Below are positions 3,876-11,509 of a stretch of DNA of 38,689 nucleotides, piece after piece. The notes beneath the pieces were generated by a model. That model was not told where the DNA came from. It was given only the letters and a program-made list of their open reading frames with translations, and made no database searches. Location: assembly GCA_012959435.1 (NCBI GenBank), contig DUDF01000025.1, positions 1 to 38,689 of the forward strand, written 5' to 3'. Each line of letters begins with the position of its first letter. Within the stretch, counting starts at the first letter, position 1. The translations under genes were made by a program, and so were the position numbers. This stretch comes from Candidatus Poseidoniales archaeon (GTDB lineage: Archaea > Thermoplasmatota > Poseidoniia > Poseidoniales > Thalassarchaeaceae).

Positions 3876-4646
3876 TTGTCAGAAAGCGATATACCACTAG
3901 TAGAAGCAAAGGACCTTGGGAAGGCATTTGGCGATTTTGTCGCTCTTCATCCATTGAATGTGAAGGTCGCTGCTGGAGAATTTTTCGGCGTTTTCGGCCC
4001 TAATGGTGCTGGCAAATCCACTTTCATCAAGTTGCTAACAGGTCAACTTAGACCAACTATGGGTGGTGCTAGGGTTTTGGGCATCAATGTTAGAGCAGAC
4101 CCACGTATGGTGAAGGCCAATGTTGGGATTGTACCTGAATCAGAAAGCCCCCCTTCTTTTCTTACGGCCGCTGAATATCTTGAATTCGTGGCTCGGCTCC
4201 GTAGTTTAGATGAGATCTCAGAAAAAGTCACTCACTGGTTAGAATGGTTTGGTATAACGGAGAAGCGAAATACTCTATGCAAGGATTTGTCAAAAGGACA
4301 GCGTCAAAAAGTGATGCTCGCAGGTGCATTTATCCATAACCCCAAGTTACTTTTCCTAGACGAACCGTTCGTTAATCTTGACCCAATTTACCAACGAAAG
4401 TGTCGTAATTTATTGATGGAAATAGTTGCTGACGGTGGTACTATTTTTCTCTGCACTCATATCCTAGAAGTTGCTGAGAGAGTATGCACAAGAGTGGCTG
4501 TGATTGACCGTGGACATGTGCTAGCTGCAGGGACTATTGATGAGTTGAAAATTAATAGTGATGAAACTCTTGAAGATGTATTCATCAGACTCGTAGGTGC
4601 ATCGTTTGATGATGTCGAGGCGATGGAAGGTAGTGAGGAGGAGTGA
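3876..4646 (+). CDS. ABC-2 transporter ATP-binding protein
   Basis: Cytoplasmic ATPase of an ABC-2 type transporter; it works with the next gene. In 256 residues: GPNGAGKSTFIKLL (Walker A, about 41-54), LSKGQRQKVMLAGAF (signature, SKGQ variant), LLFLDEPFVNLDP (Walker B and D-loop) and CTHILEVAERV (H-loop). Start is TTG at 3876 after GGGAAGGGG; no ATG fits better. The end overlaps the permease start by four bases (GTGA), a sign of translational coupling. Which substrate is moved is not visible. Confidence 0.93.
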   Translation: MSESDIPLVEAKDLGKAFGDFVALHPLNVKVAAGEFFGVFGPNGAGKSTFIKLLTGQLRPTMGGARVLGINVRADPRMVKANVGIVPESESPPSFLTAAEYLEFVARLRSLDEISEKVTHWLEWFGITEKRNTLCKDLSKGQRQKVMLAGAFIHNPKLLFLDEPFVNLDPIYQRKCRNLLMEIVADGGTIFLCTHILEVAERVCTRVAVIDRGHVLAAGTIDELKINSDETLEDVFIRLVGASFDDVEAMEGSEEE

Positions 4647-6259
4647 GAGTGCTCACTGATTATCGCCCACCCAAACTTGCAGATTCATTTTGGGTTACTT
4701 TTAGAATGATGTTCAAGGAAGAGTGGCGTCAGGCTGTAGACTTCTCTCGTAGGCGTCATATTGCACTCTTCCCTGTGATGTTAGCATTCTTGTCACTGAT
4801 TTTGACGGTTGGATTGAGATATCTTACTGGTGAAGTTTTGGTTTCGTCGGATTCAGAAGCGCAAGCGTTTTCTTGGGACCAATTGAAATTATACATGCAC
4901 GGTGGGATCTTTGCATTTTCGTTATCAATGGGCTCCTTTGCTTTCATTGGTAGGGTCATGGTTTCTCAGCGAGCAGGTGGTAAAAATTTCCTGCTTGCAA
5001 TTCCTGCTGTGCAACCACTTGATTTGGTAACCAATTACTTTGCATACTATTCAAAGGAAGTATCCTACTACGTTTTGATGCTTTTAGTTCCAGCAGTAGT
5101 GGGTATGGCAGGGGGAATTTTGCTTGAACAATTCGCTGGGCTTTCAACACCACTTGAATGGGCATCACTTCCAGTTGTACTGTTTGCTTTAACCACAACA
5201 TTATCTGAAGGTTTGGCGCTTTCTTTCATTGCTTCTGCACTATTTAGTAAGGGAGGAAAATGGTCGTATACTATTCCTGCAATTGGAATTTCAATTGGAT
5301 TGCTTGGTGCGTTGCAAATTATTAACATTAAATTATTGATTCCTGGTATGTTGTACCAATATTCACATCAACATTGGATCCCCTTAGTAACAATTCCTTT
5401 CTCATTTTTGCTCGCATACATTGGTGCTCATTTAGTGCCGGATGATTTTGAGATTCATGTTACATCAAAGAGCGAACTACTTACACCTATTTGGGAGAAA
5501 CTTCCATTCCTTGGTAACGGGATGTTACGTTTGTTAGTGGCTAAAGATTTGGTTGATTTGTGGCGCTCAAATACATTAGTGAAGATGCTAATCTCATATA
5601 CCGTCCCTCTTCTTTTCCTTTTGTTGTTGGCTTGGTTGGTTGATTTTGCATCATTCCCAATTCCATTCAATTTACTTTCGTACGCCCCGTTTCTTGGTTT
5701 CTTTGGGTTTCAATTTTACTCGTGGCTAAATGGGATGGATTCACCAGATTACCTCAATGGATTTCCTGTCGCACTTCCACAATTATTACGAGCGAAAATT
5801 GTCGTGTACTTTTTGATTACAACTTGGATTTCAGTCATTTTCTTGTTTGTGATGTCAGTGGTGCTAGACCAATTATGGGCATTACCAGCAGCTCTCATCG
5901 TGATGGTTGCTAATTCAATTTACATTGTTAGTCTGACAGCGTTATTGATGGGGCCCCGTCCCAATAAGGCAATTTTTGATATTTCAATTATGGTTTGGTT
6001 CTACATTGGTACAATCATTCCTCTTCTTGCCTTATTCCTCATTTCGTTCACTCAAGGTGATATGACAATTTACGAAAACTGGGGTCAGATGGTTTCAGAG
6101 CAGGGGTTGAATGCGACTACTTCTGTATTAGTTGAGGAGAATGTTGCAGGCAGAGGATTGCGTGGAATTCTTGGGGTTAGTGCAGGTTTAATCATTCTCG
6201 GAATTGCATTCCTAATGATGCTCAATAGAAGATGGGGTCGAAGGCCATTTGAGAATTGA
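4643..6259 (+). CDS. ABC-2 type permease, large polytopic membrane protein
   Basis: Partner membrane subunit of the ATPase upstream. The 538 residues contain an N-terminal amphipathic region and many hydrophobic helices. Clusters lie near residues 40-60, 85-105, 145-170, 178-205, 215-235, 255-275, 318-345, 355-370, 390-450 and 460-480, with a final helix near 512-530. A soluble loop of about 45 residues separates the first and second halves, so it may be an internal duplication of the usual six-helix ABC-2 unit. The GTG at 4643 overlaps the ATPase stop; a second GTG at 4649 is better spaced from AGGAGG at 4636 and may be the real start. Substrate unknown. Confidence 0.85.
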   Translation: MRVLTDYRPPKLADSFWVTFRMMFKEEWRQAVDFSRRRHIALFPVMLAFLSLILTVGLRYLTGEVLVSSDSEAQAFSWDQLKLYMHGGIFAFSLSMGSFAFIGRVMVSQRAGGKNFLLAIPAVQPLDLVTNYFAYYSKEVSYYVLMLLVPAVVGMAGGILLEQFAGLSTPLEWASLPVVLFALTTTLSEGLALSFIASALFSKGGKWSYTIPAIGISIGLLGALQIINIKLLIPGMLYQYSHQHWIPLVTIPFSFLLAYIGAHLVPDDFEIHVTSKSELLTPIWEKLPFLGNGMLRLLVAKDLVDLWRSNTLVKMLISYTVPLLFLLLLAWLVDFASFPIPFNLLSYAPFLGFFGFQFYSWLNGMDSPDYLNGFPVALPQLLRAKIVVYFLITTWISVIFLFVMSVVLDQLWALPAALIVMVANSIYIVSLTALLMGPRPNKAIFDISIMVWFYIGTIIPLLALFLISFTQGDMTIYENWGQMVSEQGLNATTSVLVEENVAGRGLRGILGVSAGLIILGIAFLMMLNRRWGRRPFEN

Positions 6260-6411: not shown

Positions 6412-7938
6412 ATGGCAAAAAAAGGACGTGGTCGGCCACAACGTCAGCGTAAAAAGCGTCAGCAGCAACAATATGAGGAACTTGATAAGTACCCAGTTTC
6501 ACCACCTCATTCGTTTGCTAGGGTTGTTCGTGACCTTAGAACATTGAACATTATTTACCAAGCTATTGAGCCACCTCTAAACAAGAAGGAACAGACACAA
6601 TTTGAAGAACTACTGGATATTTTTGTTAGGTCTTTGACCGCAGATATTGATGAAATTGATACTGACCCCGAGGGTTATTTGCGGGCAGCAATGGACCAAA
6701 TCATCAAATCCTATGGGATGAAAATTTCCAAGAAGTCTCGCTCGAAGATTTTTTACTACCTTAAGCGTGATCTGATTGGTTATGGCCGCATGGATGTTCT
6801 GATGAATGACGCAAATGTTGAGGATGTATCTTTGGATGGTACAGGAATCCCAATTTTCGCATACCATCGTAAGTTTGAGTCGGTTGAGACATCAATCCTA
6901 TGGCCCACTGATGCTGAATTGGAATCATATGTTATCAAGTTGGCACAACGTTGTGGGAAACACATATCTGTTGCTGAACCATTGCTTGACGCAACCCTGA
7001 TGGATGGTTCAAGAATTGTCATGAAATTGGGTTATGAGATTTCAACCAAAGGTTCAACTTTCTGTATACGCAGATTCCGTGAAGATCCGTTCTCACCTTG
7101 TGATCTTGTTGCATTCCGAACCATGACCTCACTAATGGTTGCGTACATGTGGATTGGTTTTCAGCAAGGTATCTCAATGCTGTTTGTCGGTGGAACGGCA
7201 TCGGGCAAAACCACCACTCTTAATGCAATGTGTCTGTTTATTCCTTGGCAGATGAAAATCGTTAGTATCGAATCAACTCGTGAAGTTAACATCCCTCAAC
7301 CAAATTGGATTCCTGGATTAACCCGTCAAGGATTCGGTGGTGAATCTGATGATGGTGTGATTGGAGAGTTCGAACTATTGAAGGCTGCTCTAAGAGAGCG
7401 ACCAGAATACATTATTGTAGGTGAGATTCGTGGTGCGGAAGCTTATGTTTTGTTCCAAGCGATGGCAACTGGACACTGTTCGTATTCAACTGTTCACGCT
7501 GACTCTGTTCCATCACTAGTTCACAGATTAGAGAACAAGCCAATTGACATCCCCCGAGTTCTGCTCCCTGCGTTGGAAGCCTGTGTGATTCAAATTCAAA
7601 CTCGTATTAATGGCCGTCGTGTTAGGCGAGCAAAACAGATTGTCGAGATTGTTGGGGTTGACCCTCATAGTTTGGAAGTGATTACCAATGAAGTGTTCAA
7701 GTGGGACCCCTCAAGAGATGACTTTGATTTCTCTGGTAAATCATATGTTCTTGAAAAAATCATGGTTAAAATTAATTATTCACAAGAACGAATGCGAGAT
7801 GAATTACGTACTAGAAAGCGAGTTCTTGATTGGATGGTTCTCAATGATATTCGTAAAGCAGACCAAGTTGCTCAAATAATCACTGAATATTATGTTAGGC
7901 CTCAAGCAGTTCTTGCAAGAGTTGACGGTCTCCAGTGA
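6412..7938 (+). CDS. FlaI/GspE-type secretion ATPase of a type IV pilus-like system
   Basis: Hexameric cytoplasmic ATPase that powers assembly of archaeal type IV pili or archaella. The 508 residues begin with a very basic tail (about 1-18), then the N-terminal domain. The ATPase core carries FVGGTASGKTTTLNAM (Walker A, 258-273), IESTREVNIPQ (Asp-box region, about 286-296), GLTRQGFGGE, PEYIIVGEIRGAEAY (Walker B, about 331-345) and SYSTVHADS (His-box, 357-365). Length fits FlaI/PilB-like archaeal ATPases. The four genes that follow are in the same direction with gaps of 14 bases or fewer, so this is the first gene of an operon. No chemotaxis or FlaB-like archaellin genes are nearby, which favours an adhesion-type pilus over an archaellum, but this is inference. 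Confidence 0.9.
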   Translation: MAKKGRGRPQRQRKKRQQQQYEELDKYPVSPPHSFARVVRDLRTLNIIYQAIEPPLNKKEQTQFEELLDIFVRSLTADIDEIDTDPEGYLRAAMDQIIKSYGMKISKKSRSKIFYYLKRDLIGYGRMDVLMNDANVEDVSLDGTGIPIFAYHRKFESVETSILWPTDAELESYVIKLAQRCGKHISVAEPLLDATLMDGSRIVMKLGYEISTKGSTFCIRRFREDPFSPCDLVAFRTMTSLMVAYMWIGFQQGISMLFVGGTASGKTTTLNAMCLFIPWQMKIVSIESTREVNIPQPNWIPGLTRQGFGGESDDGVIGEFELLKAALRERPEYIIVGEIRGAEAYVLFQAMATGHCSYSTVHADSVPSLVHRLENKPIDIPRVLLPALEACVIQIQTRINGRRVRRAKQIVEIVGVDPHSLEVITNEVFKWDPSRDDFDFSGKSYVLEKIMVKINYSQERMRDELRTRKRVLDWMVLNDIRKADQVAQIITEYYVRPQAVLARVDGLQ

Positions 7939-7950
7939 GAGGTGAAATGA

Positions 7951-9048
7951 TTGGCCAAGGAGGCGAAGGTGAAAAGAGCCCGCTTTGACGGAATGATTCT
8001 TTCGGGTTGGCAACGTTTCTCCAATGCTCTATTAGGTGGATTTTTACGTAAAAAGGTACGTGAAGACGTAGTACTTCAGAAAACTCTGTTGCAGGCAGAT
8101 ATTCGTATTATGCCTGAAGTTTACAAAGCTACAGCAATAATGTCCACCATAGTTGCTTTTGGTATTTTTATTGGAATTTTAGTTTTGGCATTGTTGCCTG
8201 AAATCGGTGCATTTGCGTTGTGGGAGAATATGCAAAACCCTGAGTCAATTTATCCTTGCATTGATTGGGCATTCTGGAATTCCAATGATATCGATCCAAG
8301 TTTAGATTGGAGTGGAGAGGGTCCAGATGGGGCAGTAGTTACTTACGGCGGATGCCCTCATTATACAACAAAAGTAGTTTCTGGTTCGATGAGATTCGGA
8401 TTGATTGCAGTTTGTGGTTTCTTTGGTCCATGGTTCTCATACAAGCATTTCTTGGGTGCTGCAGATCGACGTAAGAAAGAGCGCTCAGAAGCGCTTGAGA
8501 AGTATCTTCCATACGCTGCATCGTACACAGCAGCAATGTCTGCGGCCAACGCAACCCCTGCAAACATCTTCAAATCGTTAGCGTTGAATGAGGATATTTA
8601 CGGGGATATCGCTTATGATTCGGCAATGATTTATCGAGATATCACTTTACTTGGAATGGACTTAGTGACTGCTATCAGACTTTCAGTTGGCCGCGCAGCA
8701 TCCCCCTGGGTGTCAGAATTTTTCCAAGGCATGGTGGGCACGCTATCGTCGGGAGGTAGTTTGAAAATTTATTTCCTAAATAGGGCAGAGCATTACATGC
8801 GTGAAAACCGTACTAGGATGAGTGTCTTCCTTGAGACATTAGCAATGATGGCGGAGTCATATGTTGTGGTGGCTGTAGCGATGCCTCTGTTCTTGATTGT
8901 AATGTTAGTCATTATGTTCTGGGTGTCTGGTTCTGGTTCGCAAATTTCCGAAACTATGGTTTATGGAGTTGTACTCGGTGTGTTGCCGATGATTCACATC
9001 GCCTATTCCGGATTAATTTGGCTGATGAGCAAAGAGATGGATATGTGA
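7951..9048 (+). CDS. FlaJ/TadC-type pilus platform membrane protein 1
   Basis: Inner-membrane platform protein of a type II secretion/type IV pilus system (T2SSF domain). TTG start at 7951 with GAGGTG seven bases upstream. In 365 residues: a basic cytoplasmic start, a first hydrophobic helix (about 50-75), a loop of about 65 residues with two cysteines that probably lies outside, a second helix (about 143-162), a cytoplasmic helical T2SSF domain (about 165-300) with an ERSEALEKYLPYAASYTAAM start, and two C-terminal helices (about 300-328 and 335-358). The next gene encodes a second protein of the same class, so the pair may form a heteromeric platform. Confidence 0.85.
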   Translation: MAKEAKVKRARFDGMILSGWQRFSNALLGGFLRKKVREDVVLQKTLLQADIRIMPEVYKATAIMSTIVAFGIFIGILVLALLPEIGAFALWENMQNPESIYPCIDWAFWNSNDIDPSLDWSGEGPDGAVVTYGGCPHYTTKVVSGSMRFGLIAVCGFFGPWFSYKHFLGAADRRKKERSEALEKYLPYAASYTAAMSAANATPANIFKSLALNEDIYGDIAYDSAMIYRDITLLGMDLVTAIRLSVGRAASPWVSEFFQGMVGTLSSGGSLKIYFLNRAEHYMRENRTRMSVFLETLAMMAESYVVVAVAMPLFLIVMLVIMFWVSGSGSQISETMVYGVVLGVLPMIHIAYSGLIWLMSKEMDM

Positions 9049-9062
9049 GAGGGGGGTGAAAT

Positions 9063-10607
9063 ATGGCAAGAAGAAGCAAGAAAAAGAATATTCGCGTTGA
9101 CCTTGATTTCCCAAAGGACGATAATACCCGACGTAATTTCCTTATGATTTCAATTTCATCAGCCCTAATCGGGATTGTATTACTCGCCTTTTGGGCTACT
9201 AATGCAAGCCTAGTTTTCGGAGTATTAGCTCCTGCCCCAGCAAATGGTAACCCAGTATTCATTAACACAGCGTGTGGCTTTGATCCAAATATGGCGTTGC
9301 CAGATTATACACAAAATGAGACTTGTTTCTTTACCAAAGAAAGAATTTCTACTCAATCAATGGAAGTTGAGTGGGATAATGTGAAGGGACCGGGGAGAGG
9401 GCAAGAGTTTGATGTTACAGGTATTGCACCTGAGAGATTAGGTACACTTTCTCATCCACCTCAAGAAATGCGAATGTCATGTGTTGCGAAAGCCGACGAG
9501 GATTTCCCGTTTACAATACAAATATGGGAACCGTCTGCAGGTGGTGGTCTTGGGACCTCTTATTCGGTTAATGCTGTCACTAATCAAGAGGGTGAATGTT
9601 ACTTAGAAGTCATGAATGCCCTTCCTGGTGAAGGATGGGAGATATGGCTTCAGTTTGATAGAAGTATGCCTCGAATGAAAGAGTTTACACTTACAATTGA
9701 GGTTGATACTTACGATGGCATTCCTGATTGGATGAATAACAAAAATCAATTTATTGGGCCAGAAGTAAACCTTGGTCCATTCAACCTAAGGCCGTTAATT
9801 TTCATCAACTTCTTCGGCTATGGTTTTATTTTCCTCGTTTATCCTGGTGCTGTATACTGGGATAAAAAGATGAAAGCAATTAATGCAATGGAAGAGAAAT
9901 TCCCTGACTTCCTTCGTGATTTAGCAGAATATTGGAAAGGAGGATTGTCAATGACATTAGCGGTTAGAACATTGGCTAATTCAGAATATGGGGCACTCAA
10001 TGATGAAGTTCAGAAAATGTCCCAGCAATTATCATGGGGTGTAGCGTTTGGAGATGTGATTGTTTTGTTTGCTGAAAGGGTAGGGACTCCACTAGTCAAA
10101 CGAGCAATTAGTTTGATTGGTGAGGCCAACAGAGCTGGTGGAAAAATTTCTGATATCTTAGTCACTGCTGCTAATGATAGTCGAGAAATTAAATTCCTAG
10201 AAGGTGAAAGAGAACGAGCAATTGCCTCATATATTGCAGTTATTTGGACCTCATATTTCGTTTTCCTAGGGGTTATTGTTGTTCTTGCGAAGGTTTTCAT
10301 CCCAGCAATTTCGTCAGCAAATTCAGGTGATGATAGTGCCCAAATTGGAAACATGGTAATTCGCGCAATTGACCCACTGTTCTTCCTAGTTGTGTTTTTC
10401 TACGGTGTAAGCGCGCAGGGTCTAGGTAACGGGGCGATGGCTGGATTAATGGCTACAGGTAGGCTTTCTAGTGGCATGAAGCACGCAGGAATGATGCTAA
10501 TGATTTCAACGATTGCGTTTAATTTCGTAGCATTTTCACCTGATTTGTTAGGTGTTCCGGGAGATATGGGTTTGAATCCTTCACTTGGCTACTTTTCTCC
10601 AGGGTGA
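9063..10607 (+). CDS. FlaJ/TadC-type pilus platform membrane protein 2 with large N-terminal extracytoplasmic domain
   Basis: Second T2SSF-type platform protein, 514 residues, ATG at 9063 preceded by GGGGGGTGA. A basic start and one hydrophobic helix (about 30-57) lead into an unusual soluble insertion of about 180 residues with four cysteines (in TACGFD, ETCFF, MSCVAK and GECYLE contexts), predicted to lie outside the membrane. A second helix (about 242-262), the conserved cytoplasmic region (FPDFLRDLAEYWKGGLSMTL and KRAISLIGEANRAGGKISDI) and C-terminal helices follow. The insertion is much larger than in classic FlaJ and could contact the pilins. It follows the first platform gene by 14 bases and precedes the pilin-like gene by six. 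Confidence 0.85.
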   Translation: MARRSKKKNIRVDLDFPKDDNTRRNFLMISISSALIGIVLLAFWATNASLVFGVLAPAPANGNPVFINTACGFDPNMALPDYTQNETCFFTKERISTQSMEVEWDNVKGPGRGQEFDVTGIAPERLGTLSHPPQEMRMSCVAKADEDFPFTIQIWEPSAGGGLGTSYSVNAVTNQEGECYLEVMNALPGEGWEIWLQFDRSMPRMKEFTLTIEVDTYDGIPDWMNNKNQFIGPEVNLGPFNLRPLIFINFFGYGFIFLVYPGAVYWDKKMKAINAMEEKFPDFLRDLAEYWKGGLSMTLAVRTLANSEYGALNDEVQKMSQQLSWGVAFGDVIVLFAERVGTPLVKRAISLIGEANRAGGKISDILVTAANDSREIKFLEGERERAIASYIAVIWTSYFVFLGVIVVLAKVFIPAISSANSGDDSAQIGNMVIRAIDPLFFLVVFFYGVSAQGLGNGAMAGLMATGRLSSGMKHAGMMLMISTIAFNFVAFSPDLLGVPGDMGLNPSLGYFSPG

Positions 10608-10613
10608 TAGTCA

Positions 10614-11075
10614 ATGAATCAGCGACAGCTATCAAAAAACCCATTTGGACAAGTCCATGTATTGGAGATGTTAACACTTTTCTGGCTATTTTTCATGTCA
10701 GCAACTTTCATCTTGCAACTAGAGATTCCTGATCCTATTTCAGCATCTTCAGATGGTCAATTACAATTGGCTGCAGAAGATGCATTTATTCAGCAGATGG
10801 GAGTAGTAGCTGACGACCCAACAAGTCACAATAATCAACTTGCAGAAAGCCTTTCAGCAGGTGATTTGGATGGTACCTGTAATGAATTATTACAAGGGTT
10901 GCCAGGGCAAGTTCAGGGTAATTGTTGGGTCGCTAAAAATGAGGGTGATTTGGCTAGATATGGCCAAGGCAGTACGCCTGATGGTAGAACCCTAAGTGTT
11001 CACAAGTTGGTTGGAGACACTGGCGATATATGGACGGTTTCTCTTCAAGTATGGTATGTTGGTGGAGGTGCCTAA
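10614..11075 (+). CDS. Pilin-like small exported protein 1
   Basis: No family recognised by name. The 153 residues begin with a short polar stretch, then PFGQVHVLEMLTLFWLFFMS, a hydrophobic helix directly after a Gly-Gln pair. This is the layout of archaeal class III (prepilin) signal peptides, where cleavage occurs before Gln and the helix remains as the pilin stalk. The rest is a small polar domain with two cysteines (GTCNELL and GNCWVAK) that may form a disulfide. Placement right after the platform genes supports a pilus subunit or minor pilin. The consensus is not exact, so the cleavage site is tentative. Its stop codon overlaps the start of the next gene (TAATG). Confidence 0.7.
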   Translation: MNQRQLSKNPFGQVHVLEMLTLFWLFFMSATFILQLEIPDPISASSDGQLQLAAEDAFIQQMGVVADDPTSHNNQLAESLSAGDLDGTCNELLQGLPGQVQGNCWVAKNEGDLARYGQGSTPDGRTLSVHKLVGDTGDIWTVSLQVWYVGGGA

Positions 11076-11509
11076 TGATGAGGCGGATACATGATAACTC
11101 TGGTCAAATGTTGTTGGCAACTGGCATTATTTTGATGCTATCACTTCTAGCCATGGCTTGGTTTGGAGTTTCTGTTGCTTCACTTGGTGACCCTTATGAT
11201 ACTAGCAGTGGTGAAGTTTTAGAGGTCACGGATTCCTTTACCCAAGTTTGGCAACCAACTGTCGAGAATCGAAGTAGTACTTTGGTAGCCGATGGTGCTG
11301 ATTGGCAAGAAGCAATTGATGCAGCAGCGAATTCAACATCTGCCGACCTAATGCGTCACGGTGAGCATCGTGGCGTGGAGATAATATTGAGTGATATTGG
11401 TGCTACAAATAATAGCGGTATATTCACCATCACTTGTGAGGTTGGCATCGCTGACCGTGGAGCCCGTCTGAAAACAACTTCTTATTCTGTGGTCATTGAC
11501 CTAACATGA
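11075..11509 (+). CDS. Pilin-like small exported protein 2
   Basis: From the ATG at 11075, which shares one base with the upstream stop, the protein has 144 residues. The start MMRRIHDNSGQMLLATGIIL gives a positively charged tip, a Gly-Gln pair and then a long hydrophobic helix, again the archaeal prepilin layout. The mature part is Ser/Thr/Asp-rich, without a recognised domain, ending ARLKTTSYSVVIDL. The frame is open further upstream to 11030, but that would overlap the previous gene. It converges on the AlkB-like gene with one base between the stop codons. Function as a pilin is inferred from context. Confidence 0.7.
   Translation: MMRRIHDNSGQMLLATGIILMLSLLAMAWFGVSVASLGDPYDTSSGEVLEVTDSFTQVWQPTVENRSSTLVADGADWQEAIDAAANSTSADLMRHGEHRGVEIILSDIGATNNSGIFTITCEVGIADRGARLKTTSYSVVIDLT

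Follow-up and report, generated by a model that had tools for sequence, protein, structure and literature searches.

What kind of machine is encoded by a run of five genes at positions 6412 to 11509 of a contig from a Marine Group II archaeon, and does its platform of two different proteins make it something new? The window, by which we mean the whole stretch of 38,689 nucleotides that was analyzed, is contig C25 of a 77% complete draft genome (G000) of "Candidatus Thalassarchaeaceae." Five genes in series on the + strand were called there as open reading frames (ORFs) for an ATPase, two platform proteins that we name PlatN and PlatC, and two small prepilin-like proteins, Pil1 and Pil2; the gaps between them measure from a few to 14 bases. 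An initial annotation, made from the letters alone, had read these genes as a pilus-like operon for attachment or secretion. We conclude, with a probability of roughly 0.78, that they encode the core of a euryarchaeal-type machine for assembling type IV filaments. The pilus-like reading thus holds up, as a machine of known type with attachment as its likeliest role, and we lean toward an adhesive pilus as the product.

The first gene (6412 to 7938, +) encodes a 508-aa ATPase of the secretion/pilus type (T2SSE; archaeal PilB/FlaI-like), which matches PF00437 with an E value of 4e-25. Its motifs are intact (Walker A GGTASGKT, ESTREV, GEIRGAE, and TVHAD), and its closest solved relative is 2oap, annotated as "Type II secretion system protein" (E = 3e-118). 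The protein scores 394 bits against the NCBIfam archaellum FlaI model, for which the cut-off is 550, and it is also under the cut-off of the TadA family. In a phylogenetic tree, it groups with Thermoplasmatota pilus ATPases, separate from the FlaI and the Tad-like ATPases of its own genome; Tad-like and CpaF sequences lie outside this group, the internal support being uneven. Haloarchaeal ATPases that accompany a fused platform fall among those that accompany a split one, with weak support.

PlatN (7951 to 9048, +; 365 aa from a TTG start) and PlatC (9063 to 10607, +; 514 aa) each carry a single T2SSF domain (PF00482, E = 1e-9 and 8e-12, respectively), and the platform is heteromeric, as had been proposed. 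The two proteins had also been taken for an unusual pair of FlaJ/TadC proteins, which they are not. A PlatN-type profile matches the fused haloarchaeal TadC at residues 130 to 323 (136 bits), and a profile of the PlatC type, or C-half, matches it at residues 434 to 675 (129 bits). More weakly, the two profiles match two halves of the archaellum FlaJ of the same genome. Because they fall in two separate places of a single platform protein, PlatN and PlatC are, as judged from sequence, the N-terminal half and the C-terminal half, respectively, of an ancestral protein, the two-domain TadC/FlaJ of other archaea. Together, they supply the platform that an archaeal type IV pilus requires, which consists of two T2SSF domains encoded by one or two genes. 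Two tadC-like genes have been reported in many euryarchaeal pilus loci (Makarova 2016, PMC4858521), and the platform pair of Tad and Epd systems has been explained by gene fission (Denise 2019, PMC6668835). Since a two-gene platform is already published, the main point of novelty in the initial annotation was already known, and we rejected the heteromeric platform as a novelty. The layout is indeed not that of an archaellum, but it equals the bacterial Tad layout. PDB sequence searches with the PlatN and PlatC profiles returned no match. In other Thermoplasmatota, two pilus ATPase genes flank one PlatN-PlatC pair or precede the pair in tandem.

A large outside domain proved to be the real oddity of this platform. 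Both proteins have cysteine-bearing extracytoplasmic parts, as first noticed, with sizes that we put at about 55 to 65 and about 200 residues. The predicted loop of PlatN (about residues 95 to 150; 8233 to 8400, +) contains C103 and C135, both invariant in a 20-sequence alignment, and C155 lies near the second transmembrane (TM) helix, TM2. This topology is predicted from hydropathy and from the family-wide cytoplasmic position of T2SSF, the second TM helix being under the hydropathy threshold. In PlatC, the predicted ectodomain lies between TM1 and TM2 (about residues 48 to 246; 9204 to 9800, +). C71 and C88 are invariant there, C140 is nearly so, and C179 is invariant or nearly invariant; disulfides between such cysteines are predictions, as is the topology.

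An AlphaFold2 run on PlatC, the protein that starts at 9063, predicted that the ectodomain is a beta-sandwich (strands E96-E216, mean pLDDT of 76). Comparison of the model with the PDB by Foldseek gave weak generic jelly-roll matches only (TM scores of 0.14 to 0.18 of the query). We took these matches to indicate a beta-sandwich only and not a kinship to virus capsids or spore fibers. Directly before TM2 is a juxtamembrane motif, YDGIPxxMNNxxxxxGPEV (9711 to 9767, +), in which D218, G219, P221, M224, N225, N226, G232, and P233 are invariant in two alignments; our guess is that it may contact the pilin helix. In other Thermoplasmatota, between about 50 and about 590 residues of the open frame precede the conserved C-half. 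Since this length varies so widely, the outside part is a lineage-specific insert with very different sizes, from next to nothing to more than 500 residues across the phylum. A phylum-wide search found full-length matches to the window's version of PlatC in Poseidoniales only. No description of such a platform ectodomain was found in a literature search of partial coverage, and the predicted beta-sandwich ectodomain of Poseidoniales PlatC is apparently new.

Behind the platform genes lie Pil1 (10614 to 11075, +), with one TM helix, and Pil2 (11075 to 11509, +; 144 aa). The start of Pil2 is most likely at 11075, in a TAATG overlap with the Pil1 stop, and not at 11030, where a longer ORF begins; overlap or near-abutment of the two genes was seen again in relatives. 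Both proteins have a short basic or polar leader, then Gly or Ala followed by a nearly invariant Gln, and then a hydrophobic helix, which by sequence is the signal of class III (prepilin) proteins. The site before the helix is therefore real, as first described, but its motif is [Gly/Ala]-Gln and not Gly-Gln. A cleavage-type site is found in 70 of 73 Pil1 homologues (60 Ala-Gln and 10 Gly-Gln), the other 3 having been called from a downstream Met; Pil2 homologues have Gly-Gln in 41 and Ala-Gln in 33 of 76 cases. In the window, Pil1 reads G12-Q13-x-H-x-L-E18 with the site after G12, the Glu at +6 is invariant, and so are C89 and C104 in the alignment. Pil2 reads G10-Q11-MLLATG with the site after G10, and the start of its helix has no Glu.

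The evidence that ties these small proteins to pilins comes from position, motif, and profiles. In Pfam, both are under every cut-off. A profile of Pil1 matches that of Pil1 from other Thermoplasmatota over 144 columns with 99.3% probability, and these relatives come after platform genes there too. In haloarchaeal loci, a fused platform is followed by the pilin-like genes DUF7287, DUF7288, and DUF7261, the last being third in the series. The start of haloarchaeal DUF7288, AQxHTLE, resembles the AQVHxLE of Pil1, and 11 of 19 Pil2 members match DUF7261 weakly (best E = 0.002, under the cut-off). With hhalign, comparisons against two haloarchaeal sequences only gave 6.5% probability over 27 columns for Pil1 and 23% for Pil2. 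We regard Pil1 as a probable homologue of DUF7288, on position and motif, and Pil2 as a probable homologue of DUF7261.

Is the gene order itself meaningful? An identical five-gene order was found in all 20 of the relatives fetched. A PlatC profile led to 80 public loci, 74 of which have the full order; the other 6 lack leading genes only and are taken as cut by contig ends, with which their short contigs agree. The ratio of nonsynonymous to synonymous substitution rates (dN/dS) is about 0.04 to 0.13 for the five genes where dS is unsaturated, several comparisons being saturated. Since the order is kept in the 20 relatives and the 74 untruncated loci and dN/dS is low, the five-gene set is not a product of chance, a prospect that the initial annotation had allowed for. 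Phylum-wide, the C-half of the platform was found in 199 of 293 genomes.

We followed the operon and its possible partners through 59 relatives, with counts taken from match lists and a second, Tad-like module tallied by hand; with few exceptions, the genomes compared are draft or single-cell assemblies. PlatC is present in 40 of the 59 by profile search and missing in 19. Of the 40 genomes with PlatC, 39 encode PilA-type pilins (PF07790), outside the operon, and the 19 that lack it encode none; the window's genome has 5 matches. Genera with an archaellum but no operon also lack PilA-type pilins. In a tree of EF-2, the 19 operon-less genomes form a single clade with good support, into which one operon-bearing genus also falls, but with weak support. 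The joint presence pattern may thus rest on a single loss event or a few, and we treat it as suggestive, not as statistical proof. It is still specific, because some operon-less genera retained the archaellum and the peptidase described next.

In a search for a prepilin peptidase, no match to PF01478 (A24) above the cut-off was found in the 59 genomes or in the window's genome, and weak matches led to a divergent FlaK-type peptidase family. In this family, the motifs D-x-K-x-R-R-V-x-N and HGGADxK are conserved, and the archaeal A24 C-terminal domain Arc_PepC_II is present (E = 5e-10). It occurs in 43 of the 59 relatives, including all other genomes of the genus that were searched, but was not found in the window's 77% complete assembly. 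In the sister genome G001, the peptidase gene is immediately followed by a gene whose counterpart in the window's genome begins at base 67 of contig C59, and G001 and C59 match from the last codons of the peptidase onward. A contig break at that point would explain why the peptidase is absent from the window's assembly. The peptidase is also retained in genera with an archaellum only and is therefore common to both systems.

Other loci outside the window involve the same partners. The Tad-like module consists of two small T2SSF proteins followed by an ATPase (L005:8000-10585, on the - strand of contig C15 in G000; L211:1968-4524). In G000, its flanks show no evident pilin genes, and it occurs in exactly the operon's 40 genomes. 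The peptidase opens a trans locus (L209:2568-7479 and L206:67-3924), where it is followed by a protein of 358 aa that starts like a pilin and has a subthreshold match to the Lamin Tail Domain, two KaiC-family ATPases flanking a 194-aa protein, a PilA-type pilin, and an aroA-like gene. In many genomes, from both families, PF07790 matches sit in frames of about 4,500 to 5,500 aa. One such giant ORF of about 4,600 residues (L205:37-2235; contig C74 of G000, frame of 4,638 aa; also G001:C7, G004:C24, and others) runs at its C-terminal end through a TM helix and an acidic linker into a complete PilA-type pilin start, DDDR followed after the site by AVSPVIATILLVAITVVLAGV. The C-terminal region of this protein was found in 35 of the 59 genomes, all of them operon-bearing. 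Such a fusion of a PilA-type pilin to a giant protein is apparently new.

How does the locus compare with known systems? With the euryarchaeal type IV pili of "Clade 2" (haloarchaeal PilB/PilC type, PMC4858521), it shares a VirB11/PilB-type ATPase, the two tadC-like genes found in many of them, and small pilins of its own, a likeness of gene content and start motifs. The haloarchaeal loci that we examined differ in having a fused platform of 674 to 679 aa followed by five small pilin-like genes, whereas the window has a split platform, two small pilin-like genes, and the large PlatC ectodomain. The bacterial Tad/Flp pilus and the archaeal Epd-like pilus (PMC6668835) likewise combine an ATPase with two single-T2SSF platform genes and two pilin-like genes, and an annotated Sulfitobacter Tad locus (TadA-TadB-TadC-TadE-TadF) has the same kinds of gene in the same layout. 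In contrast to Tad, the window's ATPase is outside the TadA/CpaF group. The platform gene next to the Tad ATPase resembles the C-half, whereas the window's order is N and then C, collinear with the fused form. Neither TadZ, an Flp pilin, nor a secretin was found among the five genes or the immediate neighbors examined, the Flp pilin not having been searched for genome-wide.

The archaellum (ArlI/ArlJ, or FlaI/FlaJ) has homologous ATPase and platform domains but differs in its fused platform, FlaH/F/G, and archaellins, and the window's genome has an archaellum at a separate locus. That archaellum-type locus (L006; contig C202 of G000) contains a fused FlaJ, FlaI, and a FlaH-like gene. Most of the other same-genus genomes searched have no FlaI match, for which real variation, assembly gaps, or a stray contig are possible causes. 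The Sulfolobus Aap pilus, by its published description (PMC11178785), resembles the window's system in its one ATPase, platform, and minor pilins and is adhesive; it differs in that its platform is a single protein, AapF.

We propose that the machine would work as follows. A prepilin peptidase encoded elsewhere would cut Pil1, Pil2, and PilA-type prepilins after the Gly or Ala that precedes the hydrophobic helix. An ATPase hexamer would drive the cytoplasmic T2SSF domains of the platform, in which each PlatN-PlatC pair would act as one two-domain subunit; three pairs, a predicted stoichiometry, would match the six ATPase subunits with six cytoplasmic domains. As minor pilins, Pil1 and Pil2 would initiate the filament. 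The minor pilin at the tip of known type IV filaments has no Glu at the helix start (PMC10191384), and for this reason we propose Pil2, which lacks it, as the cap and Pil1, which has it, beneath. The filament body would probably consist of PilA-type pilin provided from other loci. The PlatC ectodomain would be at the outer membrane face, where it may guide or hold the filament base. Retraction is possible, Aap pili being known to retract without PilT or a second ATPase (PMC11178785).

Several points weigh against a pilus. No filament has been seen, and the organism is uncultured. The operon contains no PilA gene, and the link to PilA is one of co-occurrence only, behind which the EF-2 tree permits as little as one loss event. 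The Tad-like module is in the same 40 genomes, and PilA may serve that module instead. The AlphaFold model of Pil1 is unlike any solved pilin, its best Foldseek match (E = 0.02) being unrelated. We considered the Foldseek matches of this model (dynein light chains and ribosomal proteins, E of 0.02 or more) to be uninformative.

One alternative, which we consider unlikely, is that the operon and the Tad-like module are one composite pilus system acting on a common PilA, for example in extension and retraction or with different pilin sets. The two modules have an identical distribution (40 of the 59 relatives), no obvious pilin genes adjoin the Tad-like module in the window's genome, and in other Thermoplasmatota a single platform pair can stand between two ATPases. 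However, the co-occurrence may mirror a single loss event, and Aap pili need no second ATPase to retract. The main functional rival to an adhesive pilus is secretion of the pseudopilus type, in which the same parts would export enzymes or a surface protein by means of a short internal piston. Bacterial type II secretion is powered by homologous ATPase and platform parts, the operon holds only two pilin-like genes, an ABC exporter adjoins it in all genomes that have it, and Marine Group II archaea degrade protein and lipid (PMC6461757). Yet PilA-type major pilins accompany the operon, which was found to contain no dedicated secretion component and whose closest characterized relatives build adhesion pili (PMC4858521, PMC6668835); secretion is accordingly an improbable role in our estimate. 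More speculatively, the split-platform machine of Marine Group II archaea, its mouth carrying a beta-sandwich ectodomain stabilized by disulfides, might assemble the giant protein or display it on the surface. This protein would be synthesized as one chain with its C-terminal PilA-type pilin, and the peptidase would then either separate the two or allow the protein to be attached to the filament through the pilin. This would be an undescribed pilus-linked giant adhesin system, and we hold it to be quite improbable.

Pil1 and Pil2 could also be ordinary single-pass membrane proteins with no relation to pilins, as their place under the Pfam cut-offs and the Pil1 model would allow. The nearly invariant site before the hydrophobic helix, the invariant Glu of Pil1, the constant position of both genes directly behind the platform genes, the Thermoplasmatota-wide profile relationship, and the match in position and motif to haloarchaeal pilus loci make this very improbable, and the view that the small proteins look like prepilins stands. 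We rejected a variant of the archaellum, a rotating filament, as barely credible: the ATPase and platform do match FlaI and FlaJ models, but the ATPase is under the curated FlaI cut-off and apart from the genome's FlaI in the tree, FlaH, FlaF, FlaG, and archaellin are absent from the operon, an archaellum locus that looks complete and has FlaJ in fused form lies elsewhere in the same genome, and several same-genus genomes have the operon and no FlaI match.

If the five genes are the core of a type IV pilus machine, what would follow? Few archaea are as common in surface seawater as those of Marine Group II, and to our knowledge, none of them is in culture. Their attachment to particles has so far been attributed to archaella (PMC6461757). 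A separate pilus machine, kept or lost together with PilA-type pilins, would change which genes count as an attachment trait, and the operon would supply clear markers for that trait in this group. Of the core parts of such machines, the platform proteins are the ones least understood (PMC10191384), and for that reason, the variable ectodomain of PlatC offers a test of what pilus machines do at their outside face.

Upstream of the operon is a conserved neighbor, an ABC-type transporter (3876 to 6259, +; ABC_tran E = 2e-29) made up of an ATPase (3876 to 4646) and a permease (4643 to 6259), for which we make no claim of a part in the pilus machine. The permease has the same distribution as PlatC, occurring in those 40 of the 59 relatives and in no others. 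We did not accept a functional tie on the basis of this perfect co-occurrence, since adjacency, that is, linkage, explains the pattern. In many relatives, though not in the window, a small kinase-like gene lies between the transporter and the operon.

One public record labeled Deltaproteobacteria, JAOMAZ010000017.1, has a Poseidoniales operon with 53% identity to that of the window and is probably a mislabeled or mixed single-cell genome.

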